Virus record (IMG/VR): IMGVR_UViG_3300025168_000833
Span: 1-20,963 of that record
Source: a virus
Direction: 5' to 3' (one strand)
DNA: 20,963 nucleotides
Shown here: positions 2,000 to 16,069 of the stretch, piece by piece
Numbering within the stretch: the stretch's first letter is position 1
Layout of the letters: every line of letters begins with the position of its first letter
The notes under the pieces: model-generated
Seen by the model: the letters and a program-made list of their open reading frames with translations, nothing else
Databases searched by the model: none
What the model was told of the DNA's origin: nothing
Program-made: the position numbers and the translations under genes

Positions 2000-3043
2000 T
2001 TAAAGCATATCATAAAATAAGGAAGCAGCATCATCTTGCTTGCCGGACTTCCTCAACCTTGCACGCTTTTTCTTGGCTACATCATTGGCTGCATCTTCAT
2101 TTGAATTTCCTCTTCCAGCTTTTTGTACTTTAGGAACTTTCTTTACTGCTTTCTTTTTAGGAGCAACCTTTGTTGTTAGTTTGTCAAACTCCATAGCTTT
2201 CTTTATAATAAGAACACTGCGGTGGTCTGCTAACTGGTTAATCTCTTCTGGAAGAAAGCCTACTGATTTAGCGTACTCTTGTACATCTCTTTTAATAGTA
2301 GAACTTGAATCATTCCATTCAGGTAAAGCATTAACTAATCTAGAGTATTCTTGTTGAACAAAATGTGCTCTAGCTTTTTGTGCTGCTTGTTGCTGCTCTT
2401 GTTGTATAAGAGTTTGTTGCTGCGTTACATTGTTTACTTGTTCCTGTGCGTCTCTGTACTCATCTTTTTTAAGCATGTACTGATATGGGTCTTCATCTTT
2501 TAAAGTGTTCCAGTCAGTTTTTTCAAAATCTTGTAGCTTGGCACTTTGTTGCTCTTGCAACATCTGTAAACCATTTGCGTACATTTGCCTCTCTTGCTCT
2601 AACTGCATACGCTCAGATTGAATTGCTTCTGTTTCTTTACGCTGCTCTGCTAGTGCTTGAGACTTACGAGTATAGTCAGCCTGCCTTTGATAACCATTCT
2701 TGAGTTCATCTATACCAACTTCTAATTCCTCTCCATCTACTTTTATTGTATACTTTAAGTCTTCTTCAGCTACTACATCATACTCTTCTTCTTCGGCTAC
2801 CTCTTCTTCAGTTTCTTCTTCAGCTTGTCCTTCTTCTTCAGATTCAGGGGCTTCTTCTTCTACCTCTTCAGCTTCCTCTATTTCCTCTACCACTTCCTCG
2901 TCTACAGGGGTATCGGTTTCCTCGCTTGCGGTTTGCTCTTTTGAGTCCCACATACTTAGGATTTTATTTTGTGCATCAGCAGTTGTACCTGCTTGTGCTC
3001 TATTATTATTTACAACTTCTTGGGTGTTCTCTGCAGAATCCAT
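2000..3043 (-). CDS. Capsid scaffolding protein
   Basis: This 347-aa protein has no recognisable catalytic motif but shows the layout of a phage scaffold. The Glu-dominated, low-complexity region at about residues 40-105 is followed by a Gln/Glu-rich coiled-coil region (about 115-230), a helical domain, and a strongly basic Lys-rich C-terminus (about residues 288-340). In known scaffolds a basic C-terminal tail binds the capsid protein. It lies immediately upstream of the capsid gene, the usual place. The start ATG at 3043 has a GAGGAG ribosome site. Function is inferred from composition and position; no protease motif is evident. Confidence 0.8.
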   Translation of the reverse strand: MDSAENTQEVVNNNRAQAGTTADAQNKILSMWDSKEQTASEETDTPVDEEVVEEIEEAEEVEEEAPESEEEGQAEEETEEEVAEEEEYDVVAEEDLKYTIKVDGEELEVGIDELKNGYQRQADYTRKSQALAEQRKETEAIQSERMQLEQERQMYANGLQMLQEQQSAKLQDFEKTDWNTLKDEDPYQYMLKKDEYRDAQEQVNNVTQQQTLIQQEQQQAAQKARAHFVQQEYSRLVNALPEWNDSSSTIKRDVQEYAKSVGFLPEEINQLADHRSVLIIKKAMEFDKLTTKVAPKKKAVKKVPKVQKAGRGNSNEDAANDVAKKKRARLRKSGKQDDAASLFYDML

Positions 3044-3059
3044 TGGTTACTCCTCACGC

Positions 3060-3311
3060 TTAATTAAAAAATTCTTGCTCCTTCTCAGCAAGTTTACCAG
3101 TTTCAAGCACTGATTGTATATGTTGATGTACTAAATCTAATGCTTTAATTGTTATATATAACCTATCTCTTTCTATTTCTTCTGACACTTTAGTATTTAA
3201 AAGATGGTCTATCAACGCTTCTTTTACTGTACTTAAAGCCTCTATGTAAAGAGGATGTTCTAAAATTTGTTTAGCTTGGTCTGCCCTCGCTATCTCTTCT
3301 CCCTTGTTCAT
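3060..3311 (-). CDS. Small helical protein between portal and scaffold
   Basis: This 83-aa protein looks almost entirely alpha-helical and charged (start MNKGEEIARADQAKQILEH, later a repeated-looking VHQHIQSVLETG). It has no membrane segment, cysteine motif or known domain. A GGGAG ribosome site precedes the ATG, and the gene is two bases from the portal stop, so it is cotranscribed with portal and scaffold. Proteins of this size in this slot recur in marine phages and are usually left unnamed. A role in head assembly is plausible from position only. Confidence 0.65.
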   Translation of the reverse strand: MNKGEEIARADQAKQILEHPLYIEALSTVKEALIDHLLNTKVSEEIERDRLYITIKALDLVHQHIQSVLETGKLAEKEQEFFN

Positions 3312-3313
3312 TC

Positions 3314-5356
3314 TTAACTCCCTATCTTAACTGCTCGTTCCTGTTCTCGTTCAAGTACAAGCTCTTGTTGTTTAAGTGCAAGCTCTGCTTTTTTAATTTC
3401 CAACTCTTGTGCTTTAATTTGCATATCAACAGACGCTTCTTGTTTCTTAAGTTCTAAATCTTGTTGTGATATTTGTGCTTCTAATTGCATTTCTTGTTGT
3501 CTTATTGCAGATTCTTGTTGAATCTTTTGCATCTTAACTTCTATTTCTTTAGCTCTAAGTTGAGCTTCTGCTTGTTTAGCTTGTTCTTCTGGGGATGGTC
3601 CTTGTTGTTGAGCAACATCAGCATCTCCGGGGTCTGTAATAAAATCATCTACATTCTTCATGCCCATAGCTTTTATTTGCTCTGCTACTAGATTGTATAT
3701 ATTCTTCGGCTTTAATAGCATACCTGCTTGTGGATGTTGTGCAATCATTTGTATTGTTTGCGACAGCCTACCTAAGTGCATAAGGTTCATGTCTTTATTG
3801 CCAAAGCCTAAACCAACTTGTGCTACACAATCCATCTTTTCTTTCCACTCGTGTGGGTATAAAGTAGTCCATGTGTTGTTTAGCCTAACTATCTTTTCAG
3901 GCTTTTCATATTTTTGTACTAGCATATAGACAGAGTTTGCTAAGTCTTTCATTCCTGTTTCAGCAAATATTCTAGCTATTAATTCTATCTTCTGCTGTGC
4001 TGCAGTCATTACTTGACCTACGCCTGTAGCAGTTTGATGTGACTTTAAGCCACCTTCAGATAGACCCATTGACTGCTTACTAACACCAGTTCGCTCTTCT
4101 CTAATACTATCTAAATACCCTAGCATATTAAAAGAGTTCTGGTCTAGTTGTGGTGTTCCCAGAGGGTTAACAGCACCCGGTGTACGCACTCGTACAATAC
4201 CACCCGGTCTAGAAGTCATTAGGTCATCTAAATTTACTTGTCCTTCGACTACCTCATATCGCCCATTGTTTGTTAGATACATATTGTCTAACAAGTTACG
4301 CATTAGTGTAGTCTTAATTAGTTGAAGGTCAGAGATTAAGTCATATATACTCAGACCATAGAACTTATGAGGCATTGGGATAGGTGTAAGGGAGGAGAAG
4401 GGAACACTATCCACAGCCTCATTATCTAACAGTTCGTCTCCAACCTTCGTTACTTTTCTTAGTTCAGCTATTCCATCATTATCAAAGTCTACTCTTAAGT
4501 AACACTCTGTAACCCAGACTCCATCATCAATATCACCTTCTGGTGAATTGTCTTGCTCGTGAGAAAATCTAGAAAGTCTTTCTGCTTTGTAATCAGCTTC
4601 ATCGTTGCTAAATACATTTTCTATTTTATTCTTAGGATAGCCTTGCTTTATTAATTCTGATTTAGTTCTTTTAACTCTATGTGCAACAAACCTTGCGGTA
4701 TCTATTGTCTTAGCATATTTGTCAATTAAAAATTCTTCTGGTGGTACAGGTTCTATTCTAACCTGCCCATCTTCATATGTTCTATTTACTACAACATCAT
4801 GTGTTACTTGTTGTGGTTGTAAAGACATTACATCTTCTTCACCACCATTTTCTGTATGTTCTTTTACTTCTACACTATCATCTAACAGCAAAGCCATAAA
4901 TTCTTCTTCTGTTAAATTCTTGTATTCTTCTTTTAATGTCTCACTGCTGTCATCCCAGTAATGTTTTACAACACCATTTTTTTGTAGCAGTGCATCCTTA
5001 AACCACGAGTATATTGTTGTAAACCCCGGATTCTGTCTCATAATGACATAGTTTACATAATCTGTAGACTGCTTTGCCATCTCAACATCTTCTGGACCTT
5101 GCGGTTCAAACTGTACTACCTTGTCCCCTGAAGTAAATATCTTCATAAGGCTAGGCATAATCCATTCGATTACATCTGCTACATCTCTAGTGACAACCTG
5201 AGAACGACCTTCCTGCTCGTTACCATACTTTTTACCATAGTATCGGTCTAATGCGTCTGAGCGTTGCTCTGTAAGTTTGCCATCTTTGTAACCCAAAGCA
5301 GAGTTAATCTCTTGCTCTAGGTGAGCAGATAGCTCCCTCTTTGTCATTTTAGCCAT
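3314..5356 (-). CDS. Portal protein (P22-like)
   Basis: The portal forms the dodecameric ring at one capsid vertex through which DNA enters and leaves. This 680-aa protein has the expected size and features of a P22-type portal. The N-terminus has a Tyr-rich basic stretch (RYYGKKYGNEQEGRS, 38-52) followed by DVADVIEWIMPSL (58-70). A long alpha/beta body reaches about residue 580. The C-terminus (588-680) is an unbroken Gln/Glu/Lys-rich helix compatible with a coiled coil or barrel extension. The start at 5356 has only a weak AAAGGTAA ribosome site; a second in-frame ATG three codons later is possible. It is preceded by the terminase genes, the standard packaging order. Confidence 0.92.
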   Translation of the reverse strand: MAKMTKRELSAHLEQEINSALGYKDGKLTEQRSDALDRYYGKKYGNEQEGRSQVVTRDVADVIEWIMPSLMKIFTSGDKVVQFEPQGPEDVEMAKQSTDYVNYVIMRQNPGFTTIYSWFKDALLQKNGVVKHYWDDSSETLKEEYKNLTEEEFMALLLDDSVEVKEHTENGGEEDVMSLQPQQVTHDVVVNRTYEDGQVRIEPVPPEEFLIDKYAKTIDTARFVAHRVKRTKSELIKQGYPKNKIENVFSNDEADYKAERLSRFSHEQDNSPEGDIDDGVWVTECYLRVDFDNDGIAELRKVTKVGDELLDNEAVDSVPFSSLTPIPMPHKFYGLSIYDLISDLQLIKTTLMRNLLDNMYLTNNGRYEVVEGQVNLDDLMTSRPGGIVRVRTPGAVNPLGTPQLDQNSFNMLGYLDSIREERTGVSKQSMGLSEGGLKSHQTATGVGQVMTAAQQKIELIARIFAETGMKDLANSVYMLVQKYEKPEKIVRLNNTWTTLYPHEWKEKMDCVAQVGLGFGNKDMNLMHLGRLSQTIQMIAQHPQAGMLLKPKNIYNLVAEQIKAMGMKNVDDFITDPGDADVAQQQGPSPEEQAKQAEAQLRAKEIEVKMQKIQQESAIRQQEMQLEAQISQQDLELKKQEASVDMQIKAQELEIKKAELALKQQELVLEREQERAVKIGS

Positions 5357-6795: not shown

Positions 6796-7383
6796 TTAGT
6801 GTACCTTGCTGTTAGTATCCTTTAACATCTGGTTAGCGTCTGCAATATCGGCTTCATCCTTGGCCCATTGTATGTCAAACTGTCTATCTTCTACAACAAC
6901 AGTATGTTTTGGACTCCAGCCTGCTTGCGTCTTTAGCCAAAACGTAGTCATGCTAGGATTTTCTCCAGATACTGCCATTTCATAGGCTACGCCTGCAACC
7001 CTTGCTGTACGTTTCTCTTTGCCTACCAGCAAATTGTGCATAAAATATTTAGTAAGAGTAGCATTACTAATGCCCATTACTTTTGCTATTGTATGCTGGT
7101 CTAAGCCTATAGTAACCATCTCTTCTACTTTAGAATAATCGTCATCCGTAGGTTTATACGTCTGTCCTCTTTTGATTCTAGACTTTTTACCACCAGCTTT
7201 CTTACTCTCTGCAGACAAACCTCCTGTTGGTCTACCTACCTTCCGTTCTAATTTGATTACAGCATCTGCTGGTACTATACCCTTGGCAGAAGCTACGGCA
7301 TATCGTAATTCTTCTTCTAATTCTTTTTCTATTTCTCTAATTTCTTCTTTAGAGTGTACAGTAACTTTGCCCTTATTTGCCAT
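6796..7383 (-). CDS. terS: Terminase small subunit (DNA recognition)
   Basis: This 195-aa protein is the first gene of the leftward operon and directly precedes the large terminase. Residues about 86-115 (EEMVTIGLDQHTIAKVMGI, then NATLTKYF) form a helix-turn-helix of the kind small terminases use to recognise the packaging site. A basic linker (KSRIKRG, about 67-73) precedes it, and the N-terminus is a charged helix. The C-terminal part probably oligomerises and contacts the large subunit. No ribosome site lies before the ATG. Instead a TATAAT box ends eight bases upstream, so the mRNA may be leaderless (see the promoter entry). No other in-frame ATG lies near the N-terminus. Confidence 0.85.
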   Translation of the reverse strand: MANKGKVTVHSKEEIREIEKELEEELRYAVASAKGIVPADAVIKLERKVGRPTGGLSAESKKAGGKKSRIKRGQTYKPTDDDYSKVEEMVTIGLDQHTIAKVMGISNATLTKYFMHNLLVGKEKRTARVAGVAYEMAVSGENPSMTTFWLKTQAGWSPKHTVVVEDRQFDIQWAKDEADIADANQMLKDTNSKVH

Positions 7384-7420
7384 ATGTAGTATTATACCCT
7401 AAATTATTAAATATTGTTAG
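7384..7420 (-). promoter_or_regulatory. Probable promoter of the leftward packaging/head operon
   Basis: Read leftward, TATAAT (7396-7391) is a perfect -10 box, with CTAACA (7420-7415) as a 4/6 -35 box at 18 bases. The predicted start falls at about 7384, right next to the terS ATG. The stretch at 7402-7384 (TTAGGGTATAATACTACAT) is matched at 18 of 19 positions by the sequence upstream of the exonuclease gene at 16070-16088, which suggests a shared regulatory element rather than chance AT richness. Promoter assignment is inference. Confidence 0.55.
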
Positions 7421-7565
7421 CTTTTACCTAGAATATTCTAATGATTGTTTATTTGTTAGTAGGAGGGGTGTTGCATCATTAGAGATTGCTAGGTAACTGC
7501 ATTAGATTTTCTTAAAAATACTACAATATTATACCTTATAATCTAAGTTATAGTGAATTTATTTT

Positions 7566-7591
7566 CTTATCCCGAAATCTTATCCCGAAAT
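7566..7591. repeat. Tandem 13-bp direct repeat (CTTATCCCGAAAT x2)
   Basis: Two exact, adjacent copies of CTTATCCCGAAAT occupy 7566-7578 and 7579-7591. Each contains TTATCC, the first six bases of the DnaA box consensus TTATNCACA, although the last part does not match. They lie in the gene-free divergent region, about 115 bp before the iteron array. This may be an initiator or regulator binding site. The function is inferred, not shown. Confidence 0.6.
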
Positions 7592-7706
7592 CTGGGTAAG
7601 CCATTGAAAAAATTAGAATTTTGTACACAGGTCAGTTTCCCCGGATATAAAAAATTGGCGTTTGGGTGGGGTGGCCTCGACTTTCCCGGCTTTAAACATA
7701 TATATG

Positions 7707-7846
7707 ACTTCATACATAGGTATACATATACATTCATAGATACATAGCAATTCATGTACAGTAATTCATACAGGTTAATTCATAGTTACCAATTCATATA
7801 CAGGGATTTATATATACCAATACATAATAATAAATAGATACATAGT
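7707..7846. repeat. Tandem 14-bp iteron-like array, about ten units
   Basis: The sequence can be read as ten consecutive 14-bp units starting at 7707, 7721, 7735, 7749, 7763, 7777, 7791, 7805, 7819 and 7833. Four central units begin AATTCAT exactly (7749, 7763, 7777, 7791). The others are degenerate (for example AATACAT, CATAGAT, GATTTAT). In the seven-base core, positions 6 and 7 (A, T) are kept in all ten units and position 5 is C in seven. The units at 7735 and 7833 match at 12 of 14. The array is very AT-rich and gene-free. Arrays like this are typical of replication origins or multi-copy regulator sites. Confidence 0.7.
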
Positions 7847-7871
7847 TTTAATATAGGAAAATATCTTCGAG

Positions 7872-7886
7872 ATTAACCCGGTTAAT
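7872..7886 (+). promoter_or_regulatory. 15-bp near-palindrome, copy 1 (upstream of P1)
   Basis: ATTAACCCGGTTAAT has 7-bp inverted arms (ATTAACC/GGTTAAT) around a single central C. This copy is about 46 bp upstream of the P1 -35 box. It shares the longer context GATTAACCCGGTTAATTTC with copies 2 and 4. Symmetry and recurrence suggest a dimeric DNA-binding protein. Confidence 0.65.
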
Positions 7887-7931
7887 TTCAAGCCGTTTAA
7901 AAATTAATTGCACCAGATAAAAAGAAAACGC

Positions 7932-7960
7932 TTGACAATAAAATCAACATACATTATTAT
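7932..7960 (+). promoter_or_regulatory. Strong sigma70-like promoter P1 for the first early gene
   Basis: TTGACA (7932-7937) is separated by 17 bases from TATTAT (7955-7960). This is a perfect -35 box, optimal spacing and a 5/6 -10 box. Transcription would start near 7967 and give a leader of about 145 bases before the gene at 8112. The leader begins with a small hairpin (ACTTC/GAAGT, 7967-7981) and carries near-palindrome copy 2. The 13 bases AAAACGCTTGACA (7925-7937) recur exactly at promoter P2. Confidence 0.8.
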
Positions 7961-8005
7961 TGCGGTACTTCCTTGAGAAGTGCATCGCTTAAACAGGGTG
8001 TTGAG

Positions 8006-8020
8006 ATTAACCCGGTTAAT
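8006..8020 (+). promoter_or_regulatory. 15-bp near-palindrome, copy 2 (downstream of P1)
   Basis: This is an exact copy of ATTAACCCGGTTAAT about 40 bp downstream of the predicted P1 start. With copy 1 it brackets the promoter, 134 bp apart. Such pairs often allow repression by blocking elongation or by DNA looping. Following sequence (a TTTAAAAATTA stretch) also resembles that after copy 1, so a segment of roughly 40 bp may be duplicated. Confidence 0.65.
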
Positions 8021-8111
8021 TTCGTTCTTTAAAAATTAGTAGTTAGTAAGGCACTTGGCAATAATGCATTAGTGCTGGCATAACTACGTTCATTAAATAT
8101 AGGAAAATCAA

Positions 8112-8660
8112 ATGTCAAAAAGACTGTTACAGGTTAGTACACCTACTGCAAAAAAGTATAACACGCCCTTTCGTTCTGTCATTTTAGAGCTTAATAAAAG
8201 TGCCTTAGATATAAAAGGCATAGAGTTAAATAAAACAGAGAAATGCAACGATTTAGTAGCTATATTCAAAGGCATTAATGCCAAGGAATTAGAAACTAAA
8301 TGGCTAAATTTTCACAGGGAAGGCAATATCTGGTTACGACAAAAACAGGTAGAGGGAAAAGATGTCAACAGGGTAGACGCTATTAAAAAGCAAGGTTCAA
8401 CGGCTACTGTTTTAAGCACTATAAGTAGATACATAAAAGCCAATAAAGTTATTGACTCAAAAACTACTTATTTTGACATCAAGAAACATTTTGCACCAGC
8501 GAAAGTTGATGATTTAACGAAACGAAACATCAATTCATTTAAGCAATTGACACCAGCCAATCAAAAAATGGCTTTGGATTTATTGAAAAAATGGAAGCAA
8601 AAGCAAAATGAAACCATGCTAAATGCACCGGCTAATTTAAAAACTGGTACAAATGGCTAG
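8112..8660 (+). CDS. Early protein of unknown function, monocistronic
   Basis: This 182-aa lysine-rich protein is the first gene of the rightward module. It has its own strong promoter (P1) and its own terminator, the usual arrangement for an immediate-early phage gene. I recognise no domain. The sequence is mixed helical, begins MSKRLLQVSTPTAKKYNTP, has a central SRYIKANKVIDS segment near residue 105, and ends in a helical Lys-rich stretch (DLLKKWKQKQNE) with a low-complexity tail. It has no membrane segment and no cysteine motif. A DNA- or RNA-binding regulator or a host-takeover protein would fit, but this is inferred from position and charge alone. The start is supported by AGGA upstream. 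Confidence 0.75.
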   Translation: MSKRLLQVSTPTAKKYNTPFRSVILELNKSALDIKGIELNKTEKCNDLVAIFKGINAKELETKWLNFHREGNIWLRQKQVEGKDVNRVDAIKKQGSTATVLSTISRYIKANKVIDSKTTYFDIKKHFAPAKVDDLTKRNINSFKQLTPANQKMALDLLKKWKQKQNETMLNAPANLKTGTNG

Positions 8661-8690: not shown

Positions 8691-8697
8691 GTTTGAT

Positions 8698-8712
8698 ATT
8701 AACCCGGTTAAT
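8698..8712 (+). promoter_or_regulatory. 15-bp near-palindrome, copy 3
   Basis: This is an exact ATTAACCCGGTTAAT, 8 bp after the terminator T-run and 18 bp before the start codon of the small membrane protein gene. No clear promoter boxes surround it. It has the same orientation as the other copies (the odd central C on the plus strand). Confidence 0.65.
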
Positions 8713-9157: not shown

Positions 9158-9379
9158 ATGAAAGATGATGTATGGCTCAAGCAACTGCATGTAGGCAGTG
9201 AGCATGAGCAAGTAAGAAACGTGTATAGTGGTGAAAGTGTAGAGCTTGAGCCAATTGAAATAGCAGTCTATGATTATATCAAAGGATGTGAAGCCATGAG
9301 ACAATGGCACATGATGGATACTGCATTGGATTGGTTTAGGGTTAAAAATCCAACCGCATACATGGTACTTTTAGATTAA
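9158..9379 (+). CDS. 73-aa phage protein of unknown function
   Basis: This is the first gene after P2, with a GAGG ribosome site upstream. The protein has a central NVYSGESVELEPIEIAVYDY segment and a C-terminal ALDWFRVKNPTAYMVLLD. Proteins of this form are frequent in the early regions of phages and have no assigned function. The stop codon is embedded in near-palindrome copy 4, so gene end and regulatory site overlap. There is no membrane segment or metal motif. Confidence 0.72.
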   Translation: MKDDVWLKQLHVGSEHEQVRNVYSGESVELEPIEIAVYDYIKGCEAMRQWHMMDTALDWFRVKNPTAYMVLLD

Positions 9380-9389
9380 CCCGGTTAAT
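9375..9389 (+). promoter_or_regulatory. 15-bp near-palindrome, copy 4 (overlaps a stop codon)
   Basis: This is an exact ATTAACCCGGTTAAT. The TAA stop of the preceding gene is part of the left arm, and the ribosome site of the next gene (AAGGAGG) begins about five bases later. It shares 22 consecutive bases with the copy 1 region. A protein bound here could act as a roadblock just before the next gene. Confidence 0.65.
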
Positions 9390-9403: not shown

Positions 9404-10030
9404 ATGAAGCGAAAGATTGTCTTCAAAGGCAATACGCTTACTATGCATACATGCAAGAAAAATATCAAGCATATATACATAAAGCGTAAGGCTATCGAGG
9501 AAAATCTGTGGTATTGGGATAATCACTGGAAGTGTAGGGAGATATCAACATCTAGCACTATAAATTGGGAAGAGTTTTATCACTGTAAAGTGCCTCTGTC
9601 CAAAGTTCTAGGTGTTGTGTCTGCCTTATCACCAAGGCAAAAGTGGGAAGGTAACTTAAAGATAGCTGAGAAAAAGATTAGGACTGGAGATTGTGGTGCT
9701 ATAACTCAATTCAAGACTAAAGCTAATCAAGTTATATTCTCTGATGGTCATGCCAGTGAGATATGGGATATTCTGAATGGCAACAAGACTCAGAATTTTT
9801 TCATGAACCTTTTATACCCAGATGATAAGCGATATGTGACAGTTGATAGGCATGCACTTAGTATTGCACTAGGTCGCACATGCACTGATAAAGAACAGTC
9901 ACTCACAGATATTCAGTATGAGTTTTTTGCTGAATGTTACAAGGAGGTTGCCAGAGATTTGGATTTAGTCCCTAACTTTGTACAATCAATCACATGGCAA
10001 GCGTGGAGACGTTTGCATAACATAAACTAA
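9404..10030 (+). CDS. Divergent HhH-GPD (endonuclease III-like) protein, putative
   Basis: This 208-aa protein belongs to a common but unnamed phage family. Three stretches resemble the HhH-GPD glycosylase core. SALSPRQKWEGNLKIA (73-88) resembles the LLSAQ...N..A helix of endonuclease III. GNKTQNFFMNL (126-136) has a Lys at the catalytic lysine position. VTVDRHA (145-151) has an Asp where the family has VDTH. The Lys128-Asp148 spacing (20) is close to the 18 in E. coli Nth as I recall it. No C-terminal iron-sulfur cysteines are present. A DNA base-repair or base-removal role would be a hypothesis. The ribosome site AAGGAGG is excellent. Confidence 0.6.
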   Translation: MKRKIVFKGNTLTMHTCKKNIKHIYIKRKAIEENLWYWDNHWKCREISTSSTINWEEFYHCKVPLSKVLGVVSALSPRQKWEGNLKIAEKKIRTGDCGAITQFKTKANQVIFSDGHASEIWDILNGNKTQNFFMNLLYPDDKRYVTVDRHALSIALGRTCTDKEQSLTDIQYEFFAECYKEVARDLDLVPNFVQSITWQAWRRLHNIN

Positions 10031-12635: not shown

Positions 12636-12655
12636 AGGGCATCTTCGGATGCCCT
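12636..12655 (+). terminator. cUUCGg tetraloop hairpin between SSB and primase-helicase
   Basis: AGGGCATC (12636-12643) pairs perfectly with GATGCCCT (12648-12655) around TTCG, closed by C-G, which is the exceptionally stable UUCG tetraloop form. The following TGTTTACTTT is T-rich but interrupted. It may be a partial terminator or may protect the 3' end of SSB mRNA, giving more SSB than helicase. Confidence 0.7.
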
Positions 12656-12681
12656 GTTTACTTTATAAGAGAGGAGAAAAT

Positions 12682-14358
12682 ATGGATAACAAATTGCTCC
12701 ACAAAGAGCAGTGCCCTACCTGTGCAAACAGCGGTGGTGATACAGGTAAGGACAACATGGCTGTCTATTCAGATGGCCAGACACATTGCTTTTCGTGTGG
12801 AGAACATGGATTTAGTGAGCATCCACCCGGCCCACTAACCAATCCGGATTACCCTGCCCACCCAAAGACTGAAATTAACCCGGTTAAAAACGACTGGCAA
12901 ACAGAGTACCGAGGTGATTTCTATAGCTTGCCGGATAGGAAGCTCAGAGCTGAGACACTGGAGAAGTTTAAGGTGAAAGCAGAGAAGGATAAGGATGGCA
13001 AGGTAATCAAGCACCACTACCCATACCACAATCAGAAGGGTGATATGGTGGGTATAAAGACCAGACTTGTAAGCAACAAAAGATTCTTTGCTACTGGTGA
13101 CACCAGCAAGGGTAACAAACTGTTCGGTCAGGATTTGTTTAGACCGGGAGGTAAGTTTGTTACTGTATGTGAGGGTGAGCTAGATGCTATGTCTTGCTAT
13201 GAGATGTTTGGCTCTAAGTACACTCATGTATCTGTCAACAATGGTTCTAACTGCGTGGATAATATCAAGGCTAACATAGAATGGTTGGATTCTTTTGAGA
13301 CTGTGATACTCTGTTTTGATAGTGATGAGGCAGGCCGTAGTGCTGCAAAAAAGATAGCACCCATACTAGGTCCTAACAAATGTAAGATACTGACACTAGC
13401 CAAGCACAAGGATGCTAGTGATTACCTCATGAAGAATGATGGTAAGGCTTTCATTGAGGAGTGGTGGCAGGATGCTAAACCATTTACTGTATCAGGAGTA
13501 GCAACACTTGAGGATATGCACAATGCTATGCTACACTATAAGGACACTGAGCTGATACCATTGCCTGATTCATTCGGCAACCTCAACACCATGATGCGTG
13601 GTGGTGTGGCTAGAGGTGAGCTGGTGTCTATCATTGCACACACCAGTATAGGTAAAACTACCATACTCAATGAGTTGATATACCACTTCGCAGTCAACAC
13701 CAAGGAAAAGATAGGTTGCTTTATGGTTGAGGATAACATAGATGAGACCATCAGGAAGGTAGTTAGTGTACACACTGGTGAGAATATGCAGTTGACCAAG
13801 CCAAATGATTTGAATGTGGATAATATAATGAGCGAGGCTATAGACATAGGATTTGCCTCAAAGATACAACTGCATAATGATGGTGGTGGTAGTGTAGATT
13901 TAGAAGAAATGTTTTCTAAGATAAGATACTTCATTAAAGGTATAGGATGTAGTGTAATATTGGTAGACCCATTGCACACTGCAATAAAGAATTTATCTAA
14001 TGAGAACATTGAGGAAGTTATGGACAGATTTATCAAGCTATGTAAGGAGACCAAGGCAACTGTGATACTGAGTACGCACACTAGAAAGCCTGATGATGGT
14101 GGACACCCACATAAGATATGTGAGTATGATGTCAAGGGCAGTGGTGCTATACCACAGGCTTGTCACACCAACATACTATTCTCAAGAGATAAGCTGGCAG
14201 AGGATGATTACACAAGGAACTCCACACGCATTCGTGTCCCGAAAATGAGAAGGACTGGACAGACTGGCGAGGCAGGATGGACACACTTCAATGGAGTTAC
14301 CGGGAGACTGGAGAAGGGTGAAGACCCAAGCATAGGACATGGTGATGAGGACTTTTAG
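12682..14358 (+). CDS. T7 gp4-like primase-helicase
   Basis: This 558-aa protein makes RNA primers and unwinds DNA at the fork. It has an N-terminal zinc ribbon (C11, C14, C36, C39), a TOPRIM primase domain with EGELDA (164-169) and DSDEAGR (213-219), and a RecA-like helicase domain with AHTSIGKTT (319-327, Walker A), ILVDP (426-430, Walker B) and STHTRKP (464-470). The first Walker A Gly is replaced by Ala. The acidic tail ends in Phe (GHGDEDF), as in T7 gp4. The ATG at 12682 has a GAGGAG site; a start 11 codons upstream would lie in the hairpin. Codons for residues 65-69 contain a near-exact copy of the 15-bp near-palindrome. Confidence 0.93.
   Translation: MDNKLLHKEQCPTCANSGGDTGKDNMAVYSDGQTHCFSCGEHGFSEHPPGPLTNPDYPAHPKTEINPVKNDWQTEYRGDFYSLPDRKLRAETLEKFKVKAEKDKDGKVIKHHYPYHNQKGDMVGIKTRLVSNKRFFATGDTSKGNKLFGQDLFRPGGKFVTVCEGELDAMSCYEMFGSKYTHVSVNNGSNCVDNIKANIEWLDSFETVILCFDSDEAGRSAAKKIAPILGPNKCKILTLAKHKDASDYLMKNDGKAFIEEWWQDAKPFTVSGVATLEDMHNAMLHYKDTELIPLPDSFGNLNTMMRGGVARGELVSIIAHTSIGKTTILNELIYHFAVNTKEKIGCFMVEDNIDETIRKVVSVHTGENMQLTKPNDLNVDNIMSEAIDIGFASKIQLHNDGGGSVDLEEMFSKIRYFIKGIGCSVILVDPLHTAIKNLSNENIEEVMDRFIKLCKETKATVILSTHTRKPDDGGHPHKICEYDVKGSGAIPQACHTNILFSRDKLAEDDYTRNSTRIRVPKMRRTGQTGEAGWTHFNGVTGRLEKGEDPSIGHGDEDF
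12874..12888 (+). promoter_or_regulatory. Near-palindrome copy 5, 14/15 match, inside the helicase gene
   Basis: ATTAACCCGGTTAAA differs from the four intergenic copies only in the last base. It encodes Ile-Asn-Pro-Val-Lys in the linker between zinc ribbon and TOPRIM domain. It may be a real site or a chance match allowed by the linker. Same orientation as the other copies. Confidence 0.45.
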
Positions 14359-16069
14359 TTGCGACATAGAAACTGATGGTATTGATGCTAGTATTGTATG
14401 GTGTATAGCAGTGCAGAACATGGAGTCAAAACAAATCATTACTTTCTCTGGTCCTTGTCTTAATTTATTTAAGCCTTGGATGGAATCAGAGGCTGATTGT
14501 CTTGTGTTTCACAATGGCATTGGCTTTGATGTTCCTGTGCTAGAACAAATCCTTAACATAGATTTTAGTTGTGTTAAGGTAGAGGACACCATGGTGCTTA
14601 GTCAGTTGGATAAGCCAAGGAGAGATGGTGGACATTCGCTGGCTTCTTGGGGTGAGCGTCTTGGCTTTGATAAGGGAGACCACAGTGACTGGTCTAAGTT
14701 TAGTATGGAGATGTTAGACTATTGTATAAGAGATACAGAGATAACAACTAAACTATACAGACACCTGTTGCTCAAGGAACTTAGCCAAGATGCCAAGAGG
14801 TTAGAGTACGACACACGCAAGCACTGTAGCTTGCAAGAAAAAACTGGTTGGCACTTTGATTTGCAAGGTGCTATAGGATTGCTTCAAGATATTAATGGAG
14901 ACCTTAGACATGCAGAGGAGCAGGTACACCAGTCCTTTGCACCACTACCAGTGTGGAAGTCTAAGAAACCAGTAGCTAATAGGTTTACTAAGGACAACAA
15001 ACGGAGTAAGCATTATCAAACAGAGGTTGACCTTGGTTGTTACACTAATGATGATGGAGACTACGGCTACTGGATTTACCCAGAGCTTAACCTAGGTAGC
15101 AGGCAGCAGGTAGGCAGACACCTTATGCATTATGGTTGGAAACCTGCTATCTTTACTGATACAGGACAACCTAAGATTGATGAGAGTACACTCAAGGATG
15201 TTGACATACCAGAGGCTAAAGTAATAGCTAGATTTCTTATGTTGCAGAAGAGACAGGGACAGGTGAGTAGCTGGATAGATGAGTACAACCACGATACAAG
15301 AAGAATACACTGTCGTGTACACACTATGGGTACTGTAACACACAGGATGTCTAGCAGTAATCCCAACCTGCAACAAGTAACTGCCAGCAACAAGGAGTAC
15401 GGACAGGAGATGCGTGGTTTGTTTACTGTGCCTAATGGCAAGGTAATTGTAGGTGCTGACCTTTCCGGATTAGAACTCAGGTGTCTCGCCCACTACATGA
15501 AAGATGCTTCATATACAGAAGAGATACTCAGTGGTGACATCCACACTGCAAATCAAAAAGCATCAGGACTTAGCACCAGAGATGAGTCAAAGCGTTTCAT
15601 CTATGCTTACCTGTATGGAGGTGGTGATGCACTGATAGGTAACATATGTGGTGGTGGTAAAACACTAGGCAAAAAGATTAAGGAACAATTCCTAGCCAAC
15701 ACACCAGCACTTGCCACATTAAGAAAGAAGATAGAGATGGCATCTAAGAAGGGCTGGATTAAAACATTGGATGGTCGCAAGGTGTATGTGCGTAGCCCAC
15801 ATTCAGCACTCAACTTTTTACTTCAGAGTGCAGGTTCTATCATAGCTAAGAGAGCTTGGGTTATATTCCACACTCTTGCAAAAGACTATGACTACAAACA
15901 ACTCGGTGTTATACATGATGAGATACAGATAGAGTGTGACCCCGAAGATGCAGATTCAATAGGACATCTAGTGGTACAGGCCATGGAAGAGACCACTGGC
16001 TATTACAAACTCAACTGCCCCATAACTGGTGAATACAAAGTTGGTAAAAGCTGGAATGAAACACACTAA
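14345..16069 (+). CDS. Family A DNA polymerase with 3'-5' exonuclease
   Basis: This 574-aa replicative polymerase has both domains. Exonuclease: DIE (D7, E9), FHNGIGFD (55-62, D62) and YCIRD (126-130). Polymerase: motif A GADLSGLELR (370-379, D372), motif B RDESKRFIYAYLYGG (412-426) and motif C HDE (524-526). The residue matching E. coli Pol I 762 is Tyr (Y420), as in T7. The distance from first exonuclease Asp to motif A is about 105 residues shorter than in T7 Pol, so the thioredoxin-binding loop is probably absent. The ATG at 14345 has AGGA seven bases before; an ATG two codons earlier is possible. It overlaps the helicase gene by 14 bases. Confidence 0.95.
   Translation: MRTFSCDIETDGIDASIVWCIAVQNMESKQIITFSGPCLNLFKPWMESEADCLVFHNGIGFDVPVLEQILNIDFSCVKVEDTMVLSQLDKPRRDGGHSLASWGERLGFDKGDHSDWSKFSMEMLDYCIRDTEITTKLYRHLLLKELSQDAKRLEYDTRKHCSLQEKTGWHFDLQGAIGLLQDINGDLRHAEEQVHQSFAPLPVWKSKKPVANRFTKDNKRSKHYQTEVDLGCYTNDDGDYGYWIYPELNLGSRQQVGRHLMHYGWKPAIFTDTGQPKIDESTLKDVDIPEAKVIARFLMLQKRQGQVSSWIDEYNHDTRRIHCRVHTMGTVTHRMSSSNPNLQQVTASNKEYGQEMRGLFTVPNGKVIVGADLSGLELRCLAHYMKDASYTEEILSGDIHTANQKASGLSTRDESKRFIYAYLYGGGDALIGNICGGGKTLGKKIKEQFLANTPALATLRKKIEMASKKGWIKTLDGRKVYVRSPHSALNFLLQSAGSIIAKRAWVIFHTLAKDYDYKQLGVIHDEIQIECDPEDADSIGHLVVQAMEETTGYYKLNCPITGEYKVGKSWNETH

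Follow-up and report, generated by a model that had tools for sequence, protein, structure and literature searches.

Exchange of tandem-repeat arrays at a candidate replication origin in a group of uncultured marine phages

Alignment of related genomes indicates that the type of tandem array lying in one slot between the divergent operons of a marine phage is exchanged between close relatives, and we found no earlier description of this slot in the literature. We propose, with a confidence just short of even, that phage replication starts at this array, which would serve as the swappable core of the origin and bind a protein, probably one encoded by the host. The window, meaning the whole stretch of DNA that was analysed, covers 20,963 bp and is a linear piece of a virus record. 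Its terminase large subunit (TerL) is at most 53% identical to those of HTVC010P-type pelagiphages, and the phage belongs to an uncultured, ~41-kb marine group that is distant kin to them. A search for a host link via TerL among bacterial genomes found none.

The late operon runs leftward on the minus strand from its first gene, the terminase small subunit (TerS, 6796–7383), and the early operon runs rightward from 8112. The first early gene (8112–8660, plus strand) encodes 182 amino acids without a convincing family match, and relatives have unrelated first genes instead. The window's replication genes are a T7-like primase-helicase (12649–14358, plus strand), a family A DNA polymerase (14339–16069, plus strand) and a Cas4-type exonuclease. 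A T7-type RNA polymerase (PF00940) was found neither in the window fragment nor in seven near-complete relatives, while the T7 positive control was found; the label 'T7-like' given by the earlier note consequently holds for the replisome genes only. The primary origin of T7 consists of an RNA polymerase promoter and AT-rich DNA, and tandem repeats are not part of it. The window resembles T7 in its polymerase and primase-helicase, its AT-rich region and the promoter nearby, but it differs by having tandem repeats and by the absence of the phage single-subunit RNA polymerase that marks a T7-type, transcription-started origin. Most phages with the window's array type, the CAT type, also have a DUF7178 protein (9404–10030 in the window's early region), as do two phages with other arrays. 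No known RNA families scored above threshold.

The earlier note had described ten 14-bp units in exact register at 7707–7846. Autocorrelation bears out the register, with peaks at lags of 14, 28 and 42 (z between 5.2 and 6.8 over the spans 7690–7860, 7697–7850 and 7707–7846), and the maximum over all lags was equalled by none of 2000 dinucleotide-preserving shuffles. The array is real, but slightly longer than described: eleven 14-bp units with the consensus CATAYAYAGNAATW occupy 154 bp at 7697–7850 (plus strand). In the register used here, AT at unit columns 2–3 and T at column 13 are invariant in all eleven units, and four units do have AATTCAT in common. The best lag-28 score of the whole window lies at 7693, and similar scores elsewhere occur only in low-complexity coding DNA near 2730–3400. 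The array's leading motif, AAACATATATATGA (7694–7707, plus strand), is identical in all eight distinct CAT-type lineages that were compared. Its sole genome match, on a SAR86 contig, spans the start codon of an enoyl-CoA-hydratase-like gene; we rejected it as a host link because the match is due to chance.

The array region is also the weakest duplex of the window. Its GC content is 24%, a level reached by only 0.3% of same-size windows (the minimum across the window is 23%, at 7691), and it contains no ORF conserved among the relatives examined, so that its description as AT-rich, gene-free and placed between divergent operons was correct. According to nearest-neighbour energies, the least stable stretches of 60, 100 and 150 bp lie at 7806, 7776 and 7716, respectively. 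The right edge of the array is an AT-rich block, TATATACC..ATAATAAT..AGTTTTA (7809–7850, plus strand), which lies within this least stable DNA and is partly kept in relatives, independent of array type. In known origins, iteron origins and oriC among them, an initiator array occurs together with an AT-rich element that unwinds (PMC4980987). A periodicity far above shuffles, a slot position kept between conserved flanks, and the concurrence of the window's least stable DNA with an AT-rich block on the right all argue for an origin.

Compared to the iteron origins of plasmids and plasmid-like phages (RK2, P1, F), the window has the same direct repeats beside an AT-rich element and the same single cis site per replicon, with tandem repeats of fixed length and an adjacent, easily melted element both present. 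The iterons of RK2, P1 and F are typically 17–22 bp long in about two to seven copies, whereas the array has eleven degenerate copies of a 14-bp unit; moreover, a Rep gene was not found nearby, and the array type swaps without any linked initiator that we could find. Searches for Rep_3 and Phage_rep_O initiators gave no matches while their controls worked, and RepA_N gave no match with a control that was likewise silent. Because a cognate initiator was sought and not found, we do not class the array as an iteron origin, and these absent matches count against the origin reading in general; an initiator of an unrecognised family may exist.

We compared the slot across related contigs, which are metagenomic and partly non-independent. 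A TerS search yielded 80 close relatives (83–94% identical), and a further search that started from a CAT-type relative brought in additional ones. Upstream of TerS, the alignment shows a conserved left flank, comprising a TATAAT-bearing late leader, AAAAAATAATAATTTT and a G-rich GGGTGGG block, and a conserved right flank, TAATAAT..AGTTTTA, while the stretch between them is hypervariable. In the window, the left side carries a tandem 13-mer, two copies of TCTTATCCCGAAA at 7565–7590 (plus strand), which the earlier note had also seen, followed by the conserved block TTGAAAAAATTAGAATTTT (7604–7622, plus strand) and the G-rich GGGTGGGGTGGC (7664–7675, plus strand), which is GGGTGG-like in most relatives and forms the left boundary of the variable slot. 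Significant tandem periodicity was present in the slots of 22 of 41 distinct relatives, window included (lag-corrected p < 0.03), with varied periods and sequences. CAT-type 14-bp arrays, each led by the same leading motif, occur in about nine distinct lineages, and that of L277 is clearly longer. About half of the 41 have no significant tandem array in the slot, which counts against an origin. In seven relatives (L005, L009, L015, L046, L047, L049 and L050), the slot holds a short inverted repeat, such as TCGGAAGTCTTCCGAG, and then a T run; it looks like a terminator, with differences between phages that are apparently compensatory. The divergent region of isolated pelagiphages has a similar layout without a clear tandem array, and two of them, Greip and HTVC024P (L109 and L113), have an AT block and a G-rich block upstream of the terminase, as in the window, and then a single Fur-like palindrome.

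The complete difference in slot sequence between relatives, and the half without clear periodicity, would suit a fast-evolving AT-rich spacer that has no function and gains its repeats via slippage. Within one lineage of four close relatives with the same array, however, only 16 of 194 array columns were variable (8%) compared to 53 of 309 in the left flank (17%, p = 0.005), and the CAT-type array is thus constrained, changing about half as fast as its flank. This significantly slower change, together with a leading motif identical in eight lineages, makes an idle spacer very improbable. In the window and in each of two near-complete relatives (G001 and G007), the CAT motif forms a single cluster; this and the constraint both count in favour of an origin.

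The replacement arrays of two sister phages point in the same direction. The slots of L034 and L037 contain DnaA-box-like TGTGGATAAC arrays with 11-bp spacing, and none of 100 shuffles held as many TTATCCACA matches (0 to 1 of 100 across patterns); in L037, a CAT-type array follows directly after the DnaA-box-like one. These arrays resemble oriC and other tandem arrays of DnaA boxes, but the window's 14-bp units are not DnaA boxes, and its own CAT-type array has no excess of TTWTNCACA-type sites over shuffles, a further point against the origin reading. In its favour, tandem TGTGGATAAC DnaA boxes spaced by 11 bp are frequent in viral contigs (L121–L200), with two to four mostly intergenic copies and 65 of 80 examined pairs outside ORFs of at least 100 aa, and are possibly a widespread phage origin element. 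Resemblance of the array types to the sites of different host proteins, many sites in a cluster, and a cognate phage protein that was not found would also fit a decoy array, whose many cheap binding sites would benefit the phage by sequestering a host protein that binds DNA, for example DnaA or Fur, during infection. We consider this quite improbable, since eleven sites per genome titrate little ahead of genome replication, a decoy would not need the fixed position that the slot has between its conserved flanks, and the CAT type has no known host protein.

Regulation of the two operons is the main rival to an origin. Further array types in the slot are Fur-like or GGATGG-rich, and sequences resembling the Fur-box palindrome (TGATAATNATTATCA-like) exceed shuffles in the slots of L039, L036, L055 and L056, with the window not among the loci in excess; such labels, especially the Fur-like and palindromic ones, are loose pattern matches. 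If a host or phage transcription factor bound the repeats to activate or repress the divergent early and late promoters, the array would be a shared enhancer or switch, and each array type would connect the phage to its own regulator in the host. The Fur-box-like slots and the Fur-like palindrome at the matching place in Greip and HTVC024P favour regulation rather than replication, as do promoter candidates on both sides within ~140 bp. The early candidate, TTGACA-17-TATTAT (7932–7960, plus strand), has its −35 box 82 bp from the array, and the nearest late candidate, TTCACT-18-TATAAT (7528–7557, minus strand), whose TATAAT box is kept in relatives, is ~140 bp away. The earlier claim of a strong promoter stands insofar as the early candidate matches at 11 of 12 positions, but promoter-like sites in the region are no more numerous than in shuffles.

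Diversity within the early promoter region, where the palindrome pairs are specific to each phage, again suits regulation. In the window, two copies of the palindrome GAGATTAACCCGGTTAATTTC, probable operators, lie upstream (7869–7889) and downstream (8003–8023) of the early promoter, both on the plus strand. The shorter form GATTAACCCGGTTAAT occurs five times with up to two mismatches (7871–7886, 8005–8020, 8697–8712, 9374–9389 and 12873–12888), two of which flank that promoter. Where the first gene belongs to family c13, relatives carry a palindrome pair of their own at the matching places, such as TCAAGCATTTAATTGCTTGA in L079 and CCACGCATTTAAATGCGTAG in L034 and L247, and this arrangement suggests a pair of operators recognised by the product of the first early gene. 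On the late side, minus-strand TATAAT boxes lie near 7391 and 7528, and the late-operon leader has a conserved CCTAG...CTAGG hairpin (7424–7445 with 7475–7496) with compensatory changes in 5 of 10 predicted pairs across 14 sequences; an RNA element and a packaging dyad are both possible readings of it. Against a regulatory array, the motif cluster is at only one place in near-complete genomes, at least eleven weak tandem units over 150 bp of the window's least stable DNA exceed the needs of a simple operator, and Fur is not established here as an activator of phage genes. A regulatory role is accordingly a serious possibility that we nevertheless doubt.

We found no phage gene that follows the array. 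Placing the CAT label on the TerS tree takes eight changes, at least two of which are forced by strongly supported branches. G007 (CAT array) and G013 (TGCGAAT, Fur-like array) are 99% identical in polymerase, primase-helicase and SSB-like protein and 97% identical in exonuclease and RNR, and they differ in a 1.4-kb patch that contains the array together with the early promoter and first gene. Between G013 and G018, the first genes are similar (79%), the palindrome pair is the same and the sharpest difference is the array. Among 18 genomes or fragments, no gene family was present in all CAT-type phages and absent elsewhere, where several of the 18 are fragments in which a late-region gene could be missed. 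The first early gene was rejected as the array's binder because CAT-type first genes are unrelated and similar first genes accompany different arrays; the predicted fold of one first-gene family had no significant match. A 131-aa HTH-like early protein was likewise rejected, since two phages whose arrays differ share it at 96% identity.

The same comparison bears on whether TerS or another phage protein recognises the array for packaging (as a pac or cos site) or for partition. The array adjoins the TerS gene, a frequent place for such sites, and tandem repeats also mark centromere sites, but unrelated arrays lie beside TerS proteins that are 83–94% identical, so that the array is not conserved together with TerS, and a single TerS specificity would hardly fit every one of these arrays. 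With no gene family tracking the array either, this reading is barely credible. For the origin reading, core replication proteins of 97–99% identity beside different arrays, and the lack of any family that tracks the CAT type, are by contrast supporting evidence.

The earlier note had also called for cumulative GC skew. In most of eight near-complete relatives, the skew is lowest near the divergent region (at the contig end in two linearised ones), and the maximum lies at the convergent gene junction ~14 kb away. The sign change coincides with the change in gene direction, and the skew therefore gives the origin no independent support.

Taken together, an origin is the best-supported reading of the array and is supported in part, by a single constrained site, the weakest duplex, the AT-rich block and the DnaA-box-like arrays of L034 and L037, though a cognate initiator was not found. 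At such an origin, a protein would bind the 14-bp units side by side and strain the adjoining AT-rich block until it melts, where the phage primase-helicase and family A polymerase would start synthesis, perhaps assisted by transcription from the early promoter. The binder would probably be supplied by the host, because array types swap between phages with near-identical replication genes. The PLE satellites of Vibrio cholerae similarly exchange modular origins and RepA, with the repeats and the RepA DNA-binding domain changing together (PMC8263062). Both systems swap origin-type repeat modules between close elements, but no phage protein that changes with the repeats was found here. A bolder version, which we regard as unlikely, is that the phage group keeps its own replisome and swaps, like a cassette, the array at which replication starts, so that its sites would serve one or another DNA-binding protein of the host (DnaA in some phages, Fur-like or other proteins in others) in place of a cognate phage initiator.

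We found no origin description in the literature for phages that combine a T7-like replisome with the lack of an RNA polymerase, HTVC010P-like phages included, and how replication starts in them does not appear to be settled. For a kind of marine phage that is abundant, the slot offers a concrete origin candidate, and its swapped arrays form a natural set for side-by-side comparison. In lambda, plasmids and satellites, the repeats and the initiator change together. Should arrays that serve different host proteins prove interchangeable, these phages would depend less on one particular initiator than those systems do.
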